Shown here in pieces: positions 13,896 to 23,600 of a DNA stretch of 41,890 bases. The notes beneath the pieces were generated by a model. The model was not told where the DNA came from, ran no database searches, and saw only the letters and a program-made list of their open reading frames with translations. A program made the translations under genes and the position numbers. Every line of letters begins with the position of its first letter. The first letter of the stretch is position 1. Source of the stretch: Candidatus Tectomicrobia bacterium RIFCSPLOWO2_12_FULL_69_37 (lineage in GTDB: Bacteria; UBA8248); the NCBI GenBank assembly GCA_001790955.1, contig MGDP01000144.1, forward strand, positions 1 to 41,890, written 5' to 3'.

Positions 13896-14903
13896 TCACC
13901 GATCCCGGGCGAAGTCGCTGCTCCAGATTCGCGCGAGGCGCGCCATGGCCTCTTCGGGGAGCCCGTCCGCGCCCGAAGCCGAGAGCACCTCGTCGAGCTG
14001 CGCTTCGCCCGAAAAGCCGCATAGCACCGTCGAGACCCCCGCCTTCATGAGGGCGAAGCGGACGGCCGCCTGAGCCAGGGAGGCAGCCTCCCTCCCCGCT
14101 AGCCAGCGCAGCCGAGCCGCGCGCTGCACATCCCTGCCGTATTCCGAGCCCGGGGAGAGGAGAGGGGGCGGCGCGTCCACGAAGCCCAGGAAGTTTGGCG
14201 CCTCCGAGAGCGCCCCCAGTGCCAGCACCCGGATGACCAGGACTCCCATCCCCAGCTCGGCGGCGCGGTCCAGCAGGAGGCCGTAGTCGAGCGCGGAGAA
14301 GCCCGGAGACACCGGATGGCCCGCGCTCGGGTTCAGCAGGTTGTAATAGACCTGGAGGGTGTCGAAGGCCCCGCTCTCCGCCACCTCGCGGACCGCCCTC
14401 GGGTCCCCCAGGCCGGTCAGGCCGAAGAAGCGCACCTTCCCGCGGTCGCGCAGCGCCCGGAAGCCCTCCAGCACCCCGCCCGGCCCGAGGATGTCCGCCG
14501 GGTCCAGGACGAGCCCGATCGGCCACTCGCGCCGCGGGGCGATGAGGTTGTGGATCTGGACCAGGTCCACGGACTCCTGCCCGAGGCGCTCCAGGCTCCG
14601 TTCGACCGAGGCGATGGCCGCGCCCTTGGGGTCGGCGAGTTCCTCCGGCCCCAGGCGCACCTTGGTCGAGACGGTCGCCTTCGCTCCCAGCGCCCGGAGG
14701 GCCCTTCCGAGGTTGGCCTCGGAGCGGCCGTTGCCATATCCTGCCGCGGTGTCGAAGAAGGTGAGGCCCCGATCCAGGGCGCCGCGGACGGCGCGGAGCT
14801 GGGCCTCGCGGTCGTCCTCGGCCATGAGGCGGCTCACCCCGCCCGTGCCGAAGCCGACCTCGGAGACGGTCAGCCCGGTCCTCCCGAGGGTGCGGTAGCG
14901 CAT
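13896..14903 (-). CDS. Aldo/keto reductase
   Basis: MRYRTLGRTGLTVSEVGFGTGGVSRL...GLTFFDTAAGYGNGRSEANLGRAL...STKV...VDLVQIHNL; D-Y-K-H tetrad visible. Confidence 0.92.
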   Translation of the reverse strand: MRYRTLGRTGLTVSEVGFGTGGVSRLMAEDDREAQLRAVRGALDRGLTFFDTAAGYGNGRSEANLGRALRALGAKATVSTKVRLGPEELADPKGAAIASVERSLERLGQESVDLVQIHNLIAPRREWPIGLVLDPADILGPGGVLEGFRALRDRGKVRFFGLTGLGDPRAVREVAESGAFDTLQVYYNLLNPSAGHPVSPGFSALDYGLLLDRAAELGMGVLVIRVLALGALSEAPNFLGFVDAPPPLLSPGSEYGRDVQRAARLRWLAGREAASLAQAAVRFALMKAGVSTVLCGFSGEAQLDEVLSASGADGLPEEAMARLARIWSSDFARDR

Positions 14904-14931
14904 GAGGGTCTTCTGATTCCGGGCGGCCCGC

Positions 14932-15240
14932 TCAGGCGCGGGCGTGTTCCTTGAGCGGGCGCTTGAAGGCCACGGCCGCCACGTCGAAGTACTCGAGGGT
15001 GGCGTTGTTCTGCGCTCGGAAGCTCCGTTGGCGCTCCGAATTGAACCAGGCTTCGGCAGAGACCAAGTCCTCGAAGTGGTAGACCGAGGCTCCCCGGCCG
15101 GTCCTTTCGTTCGTGCCCCAGGTCTTGTCGATGAGGCCGGGGATCTCACTCTCGAAGAAGGGCACGGATTTTTCCTTGTCGGCGCGGAGCTCTTCCAAGG
15201 TGGGCAGGAGGGCTGGGTAGTGCAGGATGACCATGATCAT
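14932..15240 (-). CDS. Small dimeric alpha/beta-barrel protein, YdhR/EthD-like
   Basis: 102 aa; MIMVILHYPALLPTLEELRADKEKSVPFFESEIPGLIDKTWGTNERTGRGASVYHFEDLVSAEAWFNSERQRSF; resembles putative mono-oxygenase YdhR-type folds. Confidence 0.55.
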   Translation of the reverse strand: MIMVILHYPALLPTLEELRADKEKSVPFFESEIPGLIDKTWGTNERTGRGASVYHFEDLVSAEAWFNSERQRSFRAQNNATLEYFDVAAVAFKRPLKEHARA

Positions 15241-15504: not shown

Positions 15505-16947
15505 ATGAGCGATGAAACGTACAGGGCGATCCACGAACGGGCCAAGGCGAACCTGGAGAAGATGGGGAAACCGGACCTGCTGGACATCCTCCGGCCGGTG
15601 ACGCCGGGGACGGCGGTAGTCCGTTCCTTTTATGAGCGGTTCGGCCTTCGCCTGAATCTATTCTCCGCCGCCGAGGCGGACACGGTCTTCGATTTCCTGG
15701 GGAAGAAGCTGGCCAGCCCCATCATGGTCGCCCCCATGAGCGACAACTCCCTGAGCAACCACTACCCAGGCGCGTTCCGGGACATCTCCGCCGCCGCCCG
15801 CAAGTTCGGGACGCAGTACTGGATCGGCGACTGCAAGGACTCGGTGTGGAAGGAAGTGGCCTCCGCTGCGCCTTCCGCCATCCGGATCGTCAAGCCCTGG
15901 AAGGACCGGGAGCGGACCCTGGCGTCGCTCAGGCAGGCCGAGGAGAACGGGGCCTTCGCCGTGGGTATGGACCTCGATTCGGGCTTCTACTCCCCGGAGT
16001 GCGCGCCCCAGCCGGCCTCGGCGCTGCCCATATACGTGAAGGCGACGCGGCTCCCGTTCATCGTGAAGGCCATCGGCGCGGTGCAAGCGGCGCGCGCCGC
16101 GCGGGACGCGGGGGCCGCCGCCGTCATGGTCACCAGTCACGGGGGCTCGCTGGGGCCCTCCTGGGGGCACCCCCTGGAGGTCCTGCCGGAGATCGCGCGC
16201 GCGGTGGGGGATGACGTGCTCGTCCTGGCCGAAAGCGGCCTCCGGCGCGGGGAGGACGTGCTGAAGCTCCTCGCGCGCGGCGCCAGGGGGGTGCTGATGG
16301 GGCGCGGCCTCCTCCTCGGCCTGTTCGCCGGGGGCTCGGAGGGGGTGCTGGAGGTCCTGCGGATGCTGGACGAGGAGCTCAAGCGCGGCATGGTGCTGGC
16401 CGGCTGCCCCGACCTGGCGTCGATCGGGCAGGCCGAGGAGAACGGGGCCTTCGCCGTGGGTATGGACCTCGATTCGGGCTTCTACTCCCCGGAGTGCGCG
16501 CCCCAGCCGGCCTCGGCGCTGCCCATATACGTGAAGGCGACGCGGCTCCCGTTCATCGTGAAGGCCATCGGCGCGGTGCAAGCGGCGCGCGCCGCGCGGG
16601 ACGCGGGGGCCGCCGCCGTCATGGTCACCAGTCACGGGGGCTCGCTGGGGCCCTCCTGGGGGCACCCCCTGGAGGTCCTGCCGGAGATCGCGCGCGCGGT
16701 GGGGGATGACGTGCTCGTCCTGGCCGAAAGCGGCCTCCGGCGCGGGGAGGACGTGCTGAAGCTCCTCGCGCGCGGCGCCAGGGGGGTGCTGATGGGGCGC
16801 GGCCTCCTCCTCGGCCTGTTCGCCGGGGGCTCGGAGGGGGTGCTGGAGGTCCTGCGGATGCTGGACGAGGAGCTCAAGCGCGGCATGGTGCTGGCCGGCT
16901 GCCCCGACCTGGCGTCGATCGGCGGGGATATTCTGATCCCCCGCTAA
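15505..16947 (+). CDS. FMN-dependent alpha-hydroxy-acid dehydrogenase/oxidase family protein with internal duplication
   Basis: PIMVAPMSDNSLSNHYPGAFRDISAAARKFGTQYWIGD; LPFIVKAIGAVQAARAARDAGAAAVMVTSHGG...LPEIARAVGDDVLVLAESGLRRGEDVLKLLARGARGVLMGRGLLLGL (barrel C-terminal half, present twice). Confidence 0.82.
   Translation: MSDETYRAIHERAKANLEKMGKPDLLDILRPVTPGTAVVRSFYERFGLRLNLFSAAEADTVFDFLGKKLASPIMVAPMSDNSLSNHYPGAFRDISAAARKFGTQYWIGDCKDSVWKEVASAAPSAIRIVKPWKDRERTLASLRQAEENGAFAVGMDLDSGFYSPECAPQPASALPIYVKATRLPFIVKAIGAVQAARAARDAGAAAVMVTSHGGSLGPSWGHPLEVLPEIARAVGDDVLVLAESGLRRGEDVLKLLARGARGVLMGRGLLLGLFAGGSEGVLEVLRMLDEELKRGMVLAGCPDLASIGQAEENGAFAVGMDLDSGFYSPECAPQPASALPIYVKATRLPFIVKAIGAVQAARAARDAGAAAVMVTSHGGSLGPSWGHPLEVLPEIARAVGDDVLVLAESGLRRGEDVLKLLARGARGVLMGRGLLLGLFAGGSEGVLEVLRMLDEELKRGMVLAGCPDLASIGGDILIPR
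15932..16921 (+). repeat. Perfect 495-bp tandem direct duplication (copies 15932-16426 and 16427-16921)
   Basis: Side-by-side reading of the two copies found no mismatch. The unit is 165 codons and in frame. A 10-bp CCTGGCGTCG occurs at 15918, 16413 and 16908, flanking the breakpoints. Confidence 0.97.
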
Positions 16948-16952
16948 GCTCG

Positions 16953-18374
16953 TTAGACGCCCATCTTCTCCGCGAGGGCGAGCAGCGCCTCCCGGAACGG
17001 GGCCTCGGGGGCCCGGAGGATGCCCGCCCCGATCTGGCCGATCCCGGCCTGGCGGTGGGCGATGCCGGTGTTGATGATGGGGAGCACGTTCGTCTCCACC
17101 ACCTTCCGCACGTCGATGGCCATGGGTGCGCCCGCGAACTCCAGGACGGGGAGGGTGTAGTCCCGGCTCCGCGTCCAGGTGATGCCGTACATCTCGTTCG
17201 TCGCGCGCAGGGCCTCGGCGGGGGTGCCCCCCACGAACTGCACGATGGCGGGCGCCGCTCCCATGACGAACCCCCCCAGCCCCAGGGTCTCCATGATGGC
17301 GGAGTCGCCGATGTCGGGGTTGGCGTCCTCCTGGCGGAAGCCCGGGAAGAAGAGGCCGATGGGCATCTTGGCGGGCGCGGTGAACCAGCGCTCCCCCAGC
17401 CCGCTCACCCGGATCCCGAAGTCGGTCCCGTTCCGCGCCATGGTGTAGACGAGGGAGCAGTTCTCGACGCCCCGCATGGCCTCCAGGCTCGCCTTGGCCG
17501 AGGGCATCCCGTAGTTCAGGAAGAAGTGGTCGTTCCCGGAGATGAAGCGGGCGGCCCGGGCCACGAGCTTGCCGTCTCCCACGGCGTCCGCGAGGTGGGG
17601 CATGGTCATCCGGATGAAGGTGGCCGTGGCGGCGAGGTTGCGGTTGTGCACCTCGTCCCCCATGTGGATGGCGCGGGCGATGAGGTTCTTGATGTCCAGC
17701 CCGCCCATCGCCCGGATGGTGGCCCGGAGGGCGGGCCCCAGCTCCTCCCGCATCCAGCGCAGCCGGTCCAGCACTTCGGGGGAGTAGGCGCCGTAGCGGA
17801 GTACCTTGCCCAGGCCCTCGTTCAGGTTGCAGTAGGCCCGGTTCCCGCCGCCCAGCTCGGGCGGGGCCTGGTTCTCGATGACGTTGACGGGCATGGAGGG
17901 GGAGGTGACCCCCGCCATGGGCCCGACCGAGGAATGGTGGTGGCAGGGCTCGAAGGAGATCTCCCCGTTCGCTCCTAGGCGCTCCGCCTCCCTCTCGTCC
18001 TTGGCCCATCCTTCGAGGAGGATGGCGCCGACCACGGCCCCCCGCATGGGCCCGCTCATCCGCTCCCAGGCGATGGGGGGGCCAGAGTGCAGGATCATAC
18101 GGTCCTGCATGCCCGGTATCACGTCCTTGGCCGTCGCGACGTCGATCCATGTCGGGCGGGCGGCCTGGAGCCGTTCGGCGGCCCTCTCGTTCGCCTCATC
18201 GCAGGCTGACATCCGCTCGATGATCCCCGCCGTCTGGCGGTCCCCCCCGGCGGGAGGCTTCCAATCCACCTGGGCCGCCCGCCCCCCCTGGGCGCGGATG
18301 GACTCGGCGAAGAGCTCCGCCCCTACGTTGGCGACGCGGACGCCTTCCAGAAGGCTCAAGGGGTTCCCGCTCAT
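16953..18374 (-). CDS. DUF1116 family protein (YahG/YlbE-AllG-like)
   Basis: MSGNPLSLLEGVRVANVGAELFAESIRAQGGRAAQVDWKPPAGGD...HHHSSVGPMAGVTSPSMPVNVIEN...GNRAYCNLNEGLGKVLRYGAY...TARNGTDFGIRVSGLG-like DUF1116 motifs; adjacent to FdrA as in enteric bacteria. Confidence 0.85.
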   Translation of the reverse strand: MSGNPLSLLEGVRVANVGAELFAESIRAQGGRAAQVDWKPPAGGDRQTAGIIERMSACDEANERAAERLQAARPTWIDVATAKDVIPGMQDRMILHSGPPIAWERMSGPMRGAVVGAILLEGWAKDEREAERLGANGEISFEPCHHHSSVGPMAGVTSPSMPVNVIENQAPPELGGGNRAYCNLNEGLGKVLRYGAYSPEVLDRLRWMREELGPALRATIRAMGGLDIKNLIARAIHMGDEVHNRNLAATATFIRMTMPHLADAVGDGKLVARAARFISGNDHFFLNYGMPSAKASLEAMRGVENCSLVYTMARNGTDFGIRVSGLGERWFTAPAKMPIGLFFPGFRQEDANPDIGDSAIMETLGLGGFVMGAAPAIVQFVGGTPAEALRATNEMYGITWTRSRDYTLPVLEFAGAPMAIDVRKVVETNVLPIINTGIAHRQAGIGQIGAGILRAPEAPFREALLALAEKMGV

Positions 18375-19936
18375 CCCGCCATCTCCCGGAAGGCTGCTTC
18401 GGCCAGCAGGCAGGCCTCGGCGTGCGTCTCGGCCACGACGGCGCCCGCCGCCTCCAGCTTGCGCCGCTGGGTCTCCAGCCCCTGAGGGTCGCCTGCCGTC
18501 CCCGTCACGCTGCACAGGCAGAGGACGTCTGGGTGCTCCCGCCTGGCCCGGGCTACCGTCTTGGCGGTCTCTCCCCCCGGATCGGGATGGGCGCCCAGCC
18601 CCAGGACGACGTCGAAGAGGAGCACCGCCGTCTCCGGGTTCCCCGCCTCGCGCAGCATCTGCCCCTCGCGGAGGGAGGGCTCGATCATGGGGTGGGGGCG
18701 GCCCCGGGTGAAGTGGTCGTCCCCCAGGTCGATGACGGTGTGCCCCGGTGAGGTTTCGGGATCGGCCAGCTTGTCCGCCTTCACGAGGGGGGCGTTCGAG
18801 CGGATGGCCCCCAGGGTCTTGCGCAGGATGGCTTGGGCCTCGGCGCAGAGGGTGCCCCCGGTGTAAAGGCCGCGCAGGAACCTCCGGCGGCTGTCTTTCT
18901 TGCTTTGCGCCCAGGCCGTGACCTTGGCGAGAAGATCGGGGGAAGGGATGGGAGCCGGGGGGGCGGCGCCTCCCTTCGAGAGAGAGGCGGCCAGGTGCCC
19001 CGCCTCGGCCAGCGTCCCCGCGGCGCGGAGATCGGCCTTGCCCCGGTACGCGCTCCGGATGGCGCCTGCGTCCGCTCCGACGAAGTGGATGACGGCGGGC
19101 TTCCCGGCTTCGCCGAGGGCGCCGAGAATCGCCTGGAGGGCCCGGGGCTCGGGCGGCTTCCCCAGGATGAGGAGGACCTCCGCCGCCTGATCCGCCGCGA
19201 GGAAGCGGATGGCATCCACCATGGCGAGGCCGCCCACCGCGTCCGTCACGTCGCGCCCGCCCGTCCCCAGGGCGCAGCGGACGCCCCCGCCCGCGCGGTC
19301 GATGGCAGCCAGCGCTTCTTGGATGCCCGTCCCCGCCGCCCCCACGATCCCGATGGGGCCAGGGAGGACCACGTTGCAGAAGCCTAGGCCCACTCCCCCG
19401 ATGTGGCAGGTGCCGCAGTCCGGCCCCATCACGAGGAGCCCCTGCTCCCGCCCCAGGCGCTTGAGGACCACCTCGTCCTCGACCGGGACGTTGTCGCTGA
19501 AGATGAGGCAGTGGAGCCCCTTGCGCAGCGCCCGCTCCGCCTCCCGGCGTACCCAGGGGCCGGGGATGGAGAGGAGGGCCAGGTTGATGCCGGGGTCCGC
19601 CCCCAGGGCGGCGTCGAGGCTGGCGAACGAGAGAGGTGGGATGAAGCCTGGGGACGCCTGGGGGCGGGCGGTCAAGGCCGCCTCCATCTCTCGCAGCGCC
19701 GCCGCCGCCGCGGCCTCGCTCTCGGCCAGGACCGCGAGCACGAGGTCGTTGGGGCCCGCCCCCTTCGCCGCCTCCATCGGGAAGCCGGCCCCCCGGAACT
19801 GCTCCAGGTTCATGGGGGTGCCGAGGACGGCCATCGCCTGGCGGACGCCGGGGCGCGCGGAGGCCGCGGAGCTGATCCGCATGAGCTTGATCGAATCCTG
19901 GTACGCCCCCGGGAGGACCCGGGCCAAGGAGGGCAT
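18371..19936 (-). CDS. fdrA: FdrA family protein (YahF/AllF-like, succinyl-CoA synthetase alpha-like)
   Basis: RVLPGAYQDSIKLMRISSAASARPGVRQAMAVLGTPMNLEQF; LVMGPDCGTCHIGGVGLGFCN; GIVGAAGTGIQEALAAIDRAGGGVRCALGTGGRDVTDAVGG; ATGA overlap with DUF1116 start. Confidence 0.87.
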   Translation of the reverse strand: MPSLARVLPGAYQDSIKLMRISSAASARPGVRQAMAVLGTPMNLEQFRGAGFPMEAAKGAGPNDLVLAVLAESEAAAAAALREMEAALTARPQASPGFIPPLSFASLDAALGADPGINLALLSIPGPWVRREAERALRKGLHCLIFSDNVPVEDEVVLKRLGREQGLLVMGPDCGTCHIGGVGLGFCNVVLPGPIGIVGAAGTGIQEALAAIDRAGGGVRCALGTGGRDVTDAVGGLAMVDAIRFLAADQAAEVLLILGKPPEPRALQAILGALGEAGKPAVIHFVGADAGAIRSAYRGKADLRAAGTLAEAGHLAASLSKGGAAPPAPIPSPDLLAKVTAWAQSKKDSRRRFLRGLYTGGTLCAEAQAILRKTLGAIRSNAPLVKADKLADPETSPGHTVIDLGDDHFTRGRPHPMIEPSLREGQMLREAGNPETAVLLFDVVLGLGAHPDPGGETAKTVARARREHPDVLCLCSVTGTAGDPQGLETQRRKLEAAGAVVAETHAEACLLAEAAFREMAG

Positions 19937-19955
19937 GAGGGCTTCTCTCCTTCGG

Positions 19956-20672
19956 TCAGTCCACTATCGCCACGGCCCGGATGGGGGAGCCGGAGACGCC
20001 CCGGAACTTGATGGGCAGCACCGAGAGCTTGAAGCCGAAGGGCTTCGGGATGAGGTGGAGGTTGATCATGTTTTCGATGTGGCAGTAGTCCTTCTCGAGC
20101 ATGACGCGGTGGGCCTCCCAGTAGCGCCGGGTCTGGTGCATCTTCCAGATGGGCACGTCCCAGCCGCTCGCGTCGATGCCCATGACGCGGACGCCGTTGT
20201 CAATGAGGTAGTGGGTGGCCTCGGCGCTCATGCCGGGCTGGTTCTTGGTGTAGTCGGGGTCGGTCTCCCAGTTGCGGCTGGCGTCGGTGCGGATGAGGAC
20301 GATGTCGAGAGGCTTGAGCCTGTAGTTGATCTTCCTGAGGGCGGCCTGGATGTCCGCCGCCATGATCTCGTAGCCGCTCTCCTTGTCCGTGAAGTCGAGC
20401 ACGACGCCGCCCGAGAAGCACCACTCCAGGGGGATCCGCTCCGTGGTAAAGCCCTTGGGGTTGTTGTGCCAGGGCGAGTCGATGTGGGTGCCGGTGTGGT
20501 CGCTCATGAAGATGACACAGTGGTTGGTGACGACGGGGGCGCCGTAGTTGATGGAGCCCGTCCGCCGGGCCACGGTGTCCCAGTCCTCGTCCACCGTGAG
20601 GCTGGGGCCGGGGAGGTCCGGGTAGATGGGCATCCCGCGGTAGATCTCCATGCTGAGGTCGATCATCTTCAT
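19956..20672 (-). CDS. Cyclase family protein (kynurenine formamidase-like)
   Basis: MKMIDLSMEIYRGMPIYPDLPGPSL...SDHTGTHIDSPWHNN...VLIRTD...GVRVMGIDASGWD; HxGTHxDxPxH cyclase motif. Confidence 0.88.
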   Translation of the reverse strand: MKMIDLSMEIYRGMPIYPDLPGPSLTVDEDWDTVARRTGSINYGAPVVTNHCVIFMSDHTGTHIDSPWHNNPKGFTTERIPLEWCFSGGVVLDFTDKESGYEIMAADIQAALRKINYRLKPLDIVLIRTDASRNWETDPDYTKNQPGMSAEATHYLIDNGVRVMGIDASGWDVPIWKMHQTRRYWEAHRVMLEKDYCHIENMINLHLIPKPFGFKLSVLPIKFRGVSGSPIRAVAIVD

Positions 20673-23600
20673 CGCCGTGCTCTCCCTCGTCTCGACACCG
20701 CGCGCTTCACGGAAGTGTTTGATCTCGAATTGGTTGGACGAACCGATCGGTCGAAAAACGGCCGCTTCCGGCCGCGCTTCTTCTTCAGGAGGCTCCGCTG
20801 CTTTTCCGTCGCCGCCGCGTCGACTGGGGCGTCCTCTCCTTTCCCGATCACGACGCCGTAGTCCCGCCGGGCGCCCTCCCGCGTGACCTTCCCCCACAGG
20901 ACGTCCTGCCGGACGAGCTCGGTCTCCCGCTCCAGAGGATCGCCCCAGCCGCCCCCGCCCGTGGTGACGACCCGGACGATGTCCCCTTTCTTCACCGGCA
21001 CCCGGTTGCTCAGGGCGGGGACCACTCTCTCGCGGGAGGTCCCCGGATTCAAGGTGATGCCGTAGAGCCCCCCCGCCATCCCGCGATTCACCCCCCAGGG
21101 AGGGATGATCGAGCGGTCGGCGTTGCTGAGGGCCTCGCAGTCGCACAGGATGCGGAACTCCTTGAAGTAGCCCAGGCCCCCCCGGCACTTCCCAGGGCCC
21201 CCCGAGTCGGGCGCCAGGCCCAGCCGCTCGACCCGGACGGGGAAGCGGCTCTCGCTGAACTCGGCCGGGAGGTTCCGGCTGTTGGGTACCACGTGAATGA
21301 CGTCCACCCCGTCCCCCCAGGGCCTGCCGCCCGAGCCCCCGCCCAGGATCTCGCGGAAGAGGAAGAACTTGCCGCCGGGGCCGTGGCCGTGGACGCCCCA
21401 GTAGCGGATAGTTTCCTGGTCGGCGGGCATCCGGCCTCCCGTGGCCACCCCCAGCACCCCGCAGAAGAGGCTCAGCAGGCGCAGGATGGTGAAGGTGCGC
21501 ATGTTGGTGGGGGCGGGGAAGACCGGGGTGATGAGGGTGCCCGGCTCGGGGAATTGGACGTCCATCAGGCGGCAGATGCCCTCGTTCACGTCGATCTCGA
21601 ACATCCGGTCGTAGCTGTCCGCCAGGTTGCGTAGGATGGGCCCGATCCACTTCTTCAGGAAGGCGCCTTCGGCGTAGTCGCCCGGCCAGTTGATGGGGCC
21701 CTTGGCCTGGGGGGAGGTGCCCCGGAAGTCGAGGCGGAGGCGGCCGTTCCGCTTCGTCATCTTGAGCTTGAGGGTGTGGCGCCGGCCGTTCTCCACGCCG
21801 TCGCTCTCGATGTAGTCCTCCCAGGCGTAGGTCCCGTCCTTGATCTTGGAGATCAACTCCTCCCGGATGGTACGCTCACACTTGTCCAGCAGGGCCTCGA
21901 AGCAGCCGTTGACCGTCTCCCGCCCGAAACGCTCGAAGAGCTCGACGAGGCGCGCCCCGCCCGCCCGGCAGGCCGAGATCTCGGCGTCGATGTCGGCCTG
22001 GAGGTGCTCCCCGAGGCGGCTGTTTCGGAAGATGACTTTGTACACCGCCTCGTTCCGGACGCCACGGTCGTAGAGCTTGATGGGGGGGACGAGGATGCCC
22101 TCCTGGAAGACATCGGTGGCGTTCGTGGGGAGGCTGCCCGGCACCATGCCCCCCACGTCGTCGTGGTGGCCGAACACCAGGGCGAAGGCGGAGAGCTTCC
22201 CGTAATGGAAGATTGGCACGCAGGAGCAGAGGTCGGGGAGGTGCCCGATGCCCCCTTCCGCGAGATAGATGTCGTTCCAGAGGAAGACGTCTCCCGCATG
22301 GATATCCTCGAGGGGCCAGTTCTTGAGGACGGGGTCGACGACGGCCGAGTAGGAGCGCCCCGTCAGCTTCCTCCCCTTCACGTCGAAAAGACCCACCCGG
22401 TAGTCGTGCATGTCGCGGATGAGGGGGGAGCGCGCCGTCCGCTCGACGAGGTCCTCCATCTCGCGCTCGGCGGCGTAGAGGGCGCCCTCCACGATCTCCT
22501 GCACGACGGGGCTGGCCGTTTCCTGGGAGGCGGTCTTCGCCTTCGGGGCCAGCTGGATCCGGAGGTTGTTCCACTTGTCCACCCGGCAGCCGGCGCCCGG
22601 CGGCACCACGGTGGTGGAGCCGAACTCCTCGATGACGCAGGGGCCCTGCACCCGGTCCCCCAGCCCGAGCCGGCCTCGGTCGTACAGGGGAGTGGACACG
22701 TATCCCTGGCCCGCGAAGTAGACGGGCCGCGCGCCCTTCCGGGCGCGCTCGGGGCCCCCACTGGACCCGACCCGTCTCCGCGGGTGCCGCTCCAGTTCCC
22801 CCACGGCGGTGAGGCGCAGGTTCACGATCTCGACGGGGGTGTGGTTCTCGTAGTTGAAGCCGAATTGGGCGCGGTACGCCGCGTGGAAAAAAGAAGCGGA
22901 CCGGGACAGGGAGCGGGCGAAGCCACCTTCCGCCGGGAGCTCCACCGTCATCTCCTGGCCTTCGCCGAAGTAGCGCATGTCGGCCGAGCGGAGGAAGCGG
23001 CGGCGCGCCGGAGGGATCTCCTCCTTGGCCAGGTCGTCCTGCGCCTCGGCCTCCATGCGCTGGAAATCCCTTTCCAGCGCCTTGGGCTTCGCTTCGTCCA
23101 GGCGGGTGATGTGGGTCCGCACGTAGTCGTTCCGCAGATCCACCTCGACGAGCCCCACGGCGCTCCCGCAGCCCGGCTGGGCGGGCACCACGATCTCCCG
23201 GATGCCGAGCACCTCCGCGATGTCAGCCGCCATGAGGGGGCCCGCCCCTCCGAAGGCGAGGAGGGCGTATTCCCTCGGATCTTTCCCGCGGTTCACCGTC
23301 ATCTGGCGGATGGCGAGGGCTTGGTTCCAGGCGGCGACCTCGACGATCCCCCGGGCCGCTTCCACGGGGGAGAGGCCCTGGGGCCCGGCGAGGCGGCGGA
23401 CGCCCTCCTCCGCCTTGGCGCGGTCCAGCGGAATCCCGCCCCCGACGAGGCTTGTGGGGAGCCTGCCGAGGAGGAGCTCGGCGTCGGTCACGGTGGGCTC
23501 GCCCCCTCCCTTGCCGTAGCACATGGGGCCGGGGTCGGCCCCGGCGCTCCGCGGCCCGACCCGGAGCCTCCCCTCGGGGTTCACCCAGGCGATGGAGCCC

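Follow-up and report, generated by a model that had tools for sequence, protein, structure and literature searches.

A gapless, in-frame 495-bp tandem duplication in an FMN_dh-type gene is probably an artefact of genome assembly

Tandem half-barrel proteins include engineered duplications of the C-terminal half of HisF, and tandem copies are usually lost again through recombination. In genome assemblies, false duplications are marked by gaps or by wrong gap filling between the copies (PMC9516828; PMC2864568). According to Kelley and Salzberg, duplications within one contig are rarely mis-assembled (PMC2864568), which would count against an artefact here, although it applies to contigs left unaltered after assembly. 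Here, we analyse a duplication in an FMN_dh-type gene in a window of 41,890 nucleotides, the whole stretch of DNA under study and one entire contig (C144) of a 3.30-Mb genome in 228 contigs (91.6% complete). The evidence points strongly to a scaffolding or gap-closing artefact as the source of the second copy, and the real gene in the organism is probably a single-copy gene for a 315-aa FMN_dh-family enzyme like its orthologues.

Direct comparison of the two copies confirmed the perfect, in-frame tandem duplication of the preliminary description: they lie head to tail and agree at all positions. At an offset of 495, the maximal exact run spans 15932-16427 (496 bp), and Tandem Repeats Finder reports an array at 15918-16922 with a period of 495 and 2.0 copies. 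The unit equals 165 codons and leaves the reading frame open. The 10-mer noted earlier at three positions is indeed present at each of them and reads CCTGGCGTCG. The seam contains no N, which counts against an artefact. An identity of this length does not arise by chance, the probability for unrelated sequence of the same composition being about 10^-275. No separate single-copy allele or paralogue of the gene was found elsewhere in the genome, Rfam gave no match within the window, and nothing mobile was recognised among the genes adjoining the duplication. In the neighbourhood of the gene, the AllG, CoA-ligase-domain and putative cyclase genes stand in a row on the minus strand (16953-21650), a possible oxamate/carbamoyl-transfer cluster.

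Table 1. Features of the duplicated gene and its surroundings (window positions), with N-gaps elsewhere in the genome sample that have duplicated ends
Feature	Position	Strand	Remark
Aldo/keto reductase	13896-15149	-	upstream of the FMN_dh-type ORF
AAGGAGG Shine-Dalgarno-like sequence	immediately 5' of ORF 15505..16947		
FMN_dh-type ORF (alpha-hydroxy-acid oxidase/dehydrogenase-like)	15505..16947	+	480 aa as assembled; PF01070 match
Unduplicated N-terminal part, residues 1-143, barrel strands beta1-beta3	15505..15931	+	by motif
10-mer CCTGGCGTCG ahead of copy 1	15918..15927	+	
Copy 1 of 495-bp unit, residues 144-308, strands beta4-beta8	15932..16426	+	by motif; exact match to copy 2
10-mer CCTGGCGTCG at seam	16413..16422	+	
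Seam tail ATCGG, 4-5 nt	16423..16427	+	matches end-side, not start-side sequence; presumed join directly after
Copy 2 of 495-bp unit, residues 309-473	16427..16921	+	exact match to copy 1; missing in 7/7 complete relatives
10-mer CCTGGCGTCG at end of copy 2	16908..16917	+	
Native C-terminal tail GGDILIPR and stop	16922..16947	+	as in single-copy relatives
AllG, oxamate carbamoyltransferase subunit	16953-18515	-	convergent, downstream of the FMN_dh-type ORF
CoA-ligase domain protein (FdrA-like by context)	18371-19936	-	convergent, downstream
Putative cyclase	19956-21650	-	convergent, downstream
N-gaps with duplicated ends	L041 14083; L050 5202; L065 14000; L078 534		
N-gaps with duplicated ends	L083 1211; L127 1281; L130 1248; L150 4367		

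The gene had been assigned to the FMN alpha-hydroxy-acid dehydrogenases, and a match to FMN_dh (PF01070) bears this out: the ORF aligns in several stretches (E=1.6e-88; 297.6 bits against a Pfam gathering cut-off of 24.9, a score in which the duplicated part is counted more than once). The duplicated segment carries the Lys, His and GxxxGR motifs attributed to it, and LPFIVKA (Lys) and SHGG (His) line up with solved structures of the family. Its description as the C-terminal half of the barrel is slightly inexact, since sequence motifs and the predicted secondary structure place five of the eight strand positions, beta4-beta8, in the unit. The Arg that binds the substrate carboxylate, expected after HGG/HGA, is missing throughout the L004-L010 group of relatives, with Ser here and in L004 and Ala in the others. 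This leaves the substrate uncertain; in this group it may be something other than a simple 2-hydroxy acid, and we therefore file the protein only as FMN_dh-like. The window protein matched no NCBIfam equivalog at its cut-off. Judged by its sequence, the underlying gene encodes a divergent yet ordinary FMN_dh-type protein. AlphaFold, run on the 480-aa product with an eight-sequence alignment, returned a mean pLDDT of 49.1, and thus we make no claim about the fold of that product.

Comparison with orthologues shows which part of the ORF is peculiar to this assembly. All seven complete orthologues from the same bacterial family are exactly 315 aa long, as the earlier estimate of about 315 in place of 480 had anticipated, with identities of 60-63% (closest 71%). 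All are single-copy, and they came from a contig search with the relatives' alignment; an earlier contig search with the window protein as query gave no matches, and two congeneric genomes yielded no close homologue. In the alignment of the orthologues with the window protein, 165 columns form one clean gap, and copy 2 is followed by the native tail, x-ILI-x-R. Because 480 is 315 plus 165 and one gap accounts for the difference, the duplication is confined to this assembly. A naturally longer family is ruled out by the same uniform lengths. Among more distant relatives (L014, L015, L017 and L018), the homologous domain makes up the C-terminal portion of longer ORFs (about 700-755 aa), whose N-terminal part resembles, by eye, ATP-grasp ligases.

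The duplication has counterparts in the same genome. A sample of 101 stretches including the window (1.30 Mb, 39% of the genome) contains three large gapless head-to-tail duplications, that of the window among them; 40 stretches from six relatives' genomes (596 kb; G001, G006, G007, G011, G012 and G013) contain none. On contig C30 (L040 15046-15849), 402 bp are duplicated in frame with 2 mismatches within an ORF for an iron-sulphur/molybdopterin-type oxidoreductase. On contig C161 (L093 2936-5553), an exact duplication of 1309 bp, a length that is no multiple of 3, yields a chimera of two overlapping genes, whose start resembles a D-2-hydroxyacid dehydrogenase and whose end resembles hydantoinase B (names by eye). 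At both loci, the relatives have the single-copy arrangement. The 402-bp duplication is probably of the same artefact class as the 495-bp one.

The three seams have a common form: after an exact match in register come nucleotides of the left copy before the right copy begins. The matches are CCTGGCGTCG (10 nt), AGGCGGGGCGC (11 nt) and GACCAGGTGG (10 nt), each followed by a left-copy tail (4-5, 5 and 4-5 nt, respectively) that differs from the start-side sequence; the 495-bp seam thus keeps ATCG or ATCGG (16423-16426/7) from the end side before the start-side sequence begins. This form was noticed after the fact and in three seams only. The probability that 10 or more matching nucleotides in a row fall within 20 bp of a random seam is about 3e-4 to 8e-4, which indicates that the matches belong to the mechanism. 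Their lengths fit those of chance matches with a 10-nt floor, 65% of which are 10 nt and 23% 11 nt long. Simple slippage or exchange inside the 10-mer is rejected, as the seam lies 4-5 nt beyond CCTGGCGTCG.

Gaps in the assembly provide a second line of evidence. In the sample, 8 of 19 N-gaps are flanked on both sides by an identical 14-62 bp, which means that overlapping pieces were placed side by side and left unmerged; such placement is the basic step by which a false tandem duplication forms. As a separate observation, the 127 bp preceding a 47-N gap (L123 1507-1633) recur exactly 2042 bp downstream, a possible misjoin.

We favour an artefact because two more tandem duplications share the seam form and the N-gaps show unmerged overlaps. 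In the mechanism that we propose, two assembled pieces, or the left and right extensions into a gap, would overlap over one stretch and be joined end to end rather than merged. If a spurious agreement of about 10 nt between their ends, here CCTGGCGTCG, sufficed for the join, a perfect head-to-tail copy would result; a program that closes gaps by extending both flanks and is satisfied with a 10-nt overlap could leave such seams where its extensions overshoot each other. We infer that the join was made at a scaffolding or gap-closing step. GapFiller has such a rule, its default being to close a gap once the extensions from either side share an overlap of 10 nt or more (PMC3446322); we cite it as an example of the 10-nt rule in use. 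Neither the GapFiller description nor the published rules consulted account for the constant tail of about 5 nt. Three marks of false duplication are seen here: identical copies, absence from relatives and the same kind of error elsewhere in the assembly. The preliminary description had read the 10-mer as a sign of microhomology or slippage and had left the choice between a very recent event and an assembly artefact. The latter is now favoured, and a minimum-overlap join accounts for CCTGGCGTCG better than slippage, given the seams of 10-11 nt plus about 5 nt at C30 and C161 and the unmerged overlaps at N-gaps.

The main alternative, a real and very recent in-frame tandem duplication that is fixed or polymorphic in the population, we consider unlikely. 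It would have arisen by slipped-strand pairing or template switching at an imperfect 15-nt repeat, CCTGGCGTCG-x-TC-x-G, and it would account for the identity of the copies, the intact frame, the retained native tail and the 10-nt repeat at the borders. The seam matches are also in the coding frame in all three events, as would be seen if real duplications had been under selection, and this counts against an artefact; 48% of 10-mer pairs that arise by chance 300-1500 bp apart in this genome are in phase, so that three of three has a chance of about 0.11. The 2 mismatches in the 402-bp pair could likewise be slight real divergence. However, a real origin has to explain why three events that share a seam form occur within 39% of the genome, against none in the sample from the relatives, and this in an assembly that demonstrably leaves overlaps unmerged. 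The match lengths sit at the 10-nt floor, where a wider spread would be expected of biological microhomology, and the unmatched 3' tail of 4-5 nt runs contrary to polymerase priming, as a polymerase would not normally be expected to extend such a tail. Amplification chimeras typically have short-homology junctions, and the seam does carry short homology, but chimeric library molecules produced by template switching and unrolled once by the assembler, with one unit in the organism, are a very improbable source, as nothing indicates amplified DNA, switching by a polymerase would not be expected to yield the constant 10 + 5 form of the seams, and the unmerged N-gap flanks would go unexplained.

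The artefact reading has practical consequences. If it is correct, the case warns that a draft genome can mimic new protein architectures through tandem duplications that are gapless, in frame and perfect, and a match of at least 10 nt with a left-copy tail of about 5 nt, together with duplicated N-gap flanks, offers a quick test for other genomes. If instead the duplication were real, residues 1-308 would form a normal barrel missing only the last few tail residues, and copy 2 would be an orphan five-strand extension without strands 1 to 3. The product would be a natural enzyme with 13 strand positions, in which a second, still undiverged beta4-beta8 set follows a full FMN barrel, and the genome would be one in which tandem duplications at 10-nt repeats arise repeatedly. 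Such a rare, fresh partial-barrel duplication would be relevant to the growth of TIM barrels.

Set beside known systems, the protein shares the conserved Lys, His, RRG and GR motifs of the PF01070 enzymes lactate oxidase, glycolate oxidase and hydroxyacid oxidase; these oxidases have an Arg in HGGR where the window protein and its relatives have Ser or Ala, and the underlying gene product, at 315 aa, is shorter. If the duplication were real, the engineered HisF C-half duplications would be the nearest analogue. In contrast to the four-strand HisF half-barrels, the unit here has five strand positions, follows an intact barrel and probably exists only in the assembly. The closer likeness is to the false tandem duplications described by Kelley and Salzberg (2010, PMC2864568) and Ko et al. 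(2022, PMC9516828): adjacent, near-identical copies that are missing in relatives, gaps with unmerged overlaps in the assembly and a false gain of gene content. Those cases come from diploid vertebrates with haplotype differences, whereas the present one comes from a bacterial draft genome and has gapless seams with a 10-nt overlap.
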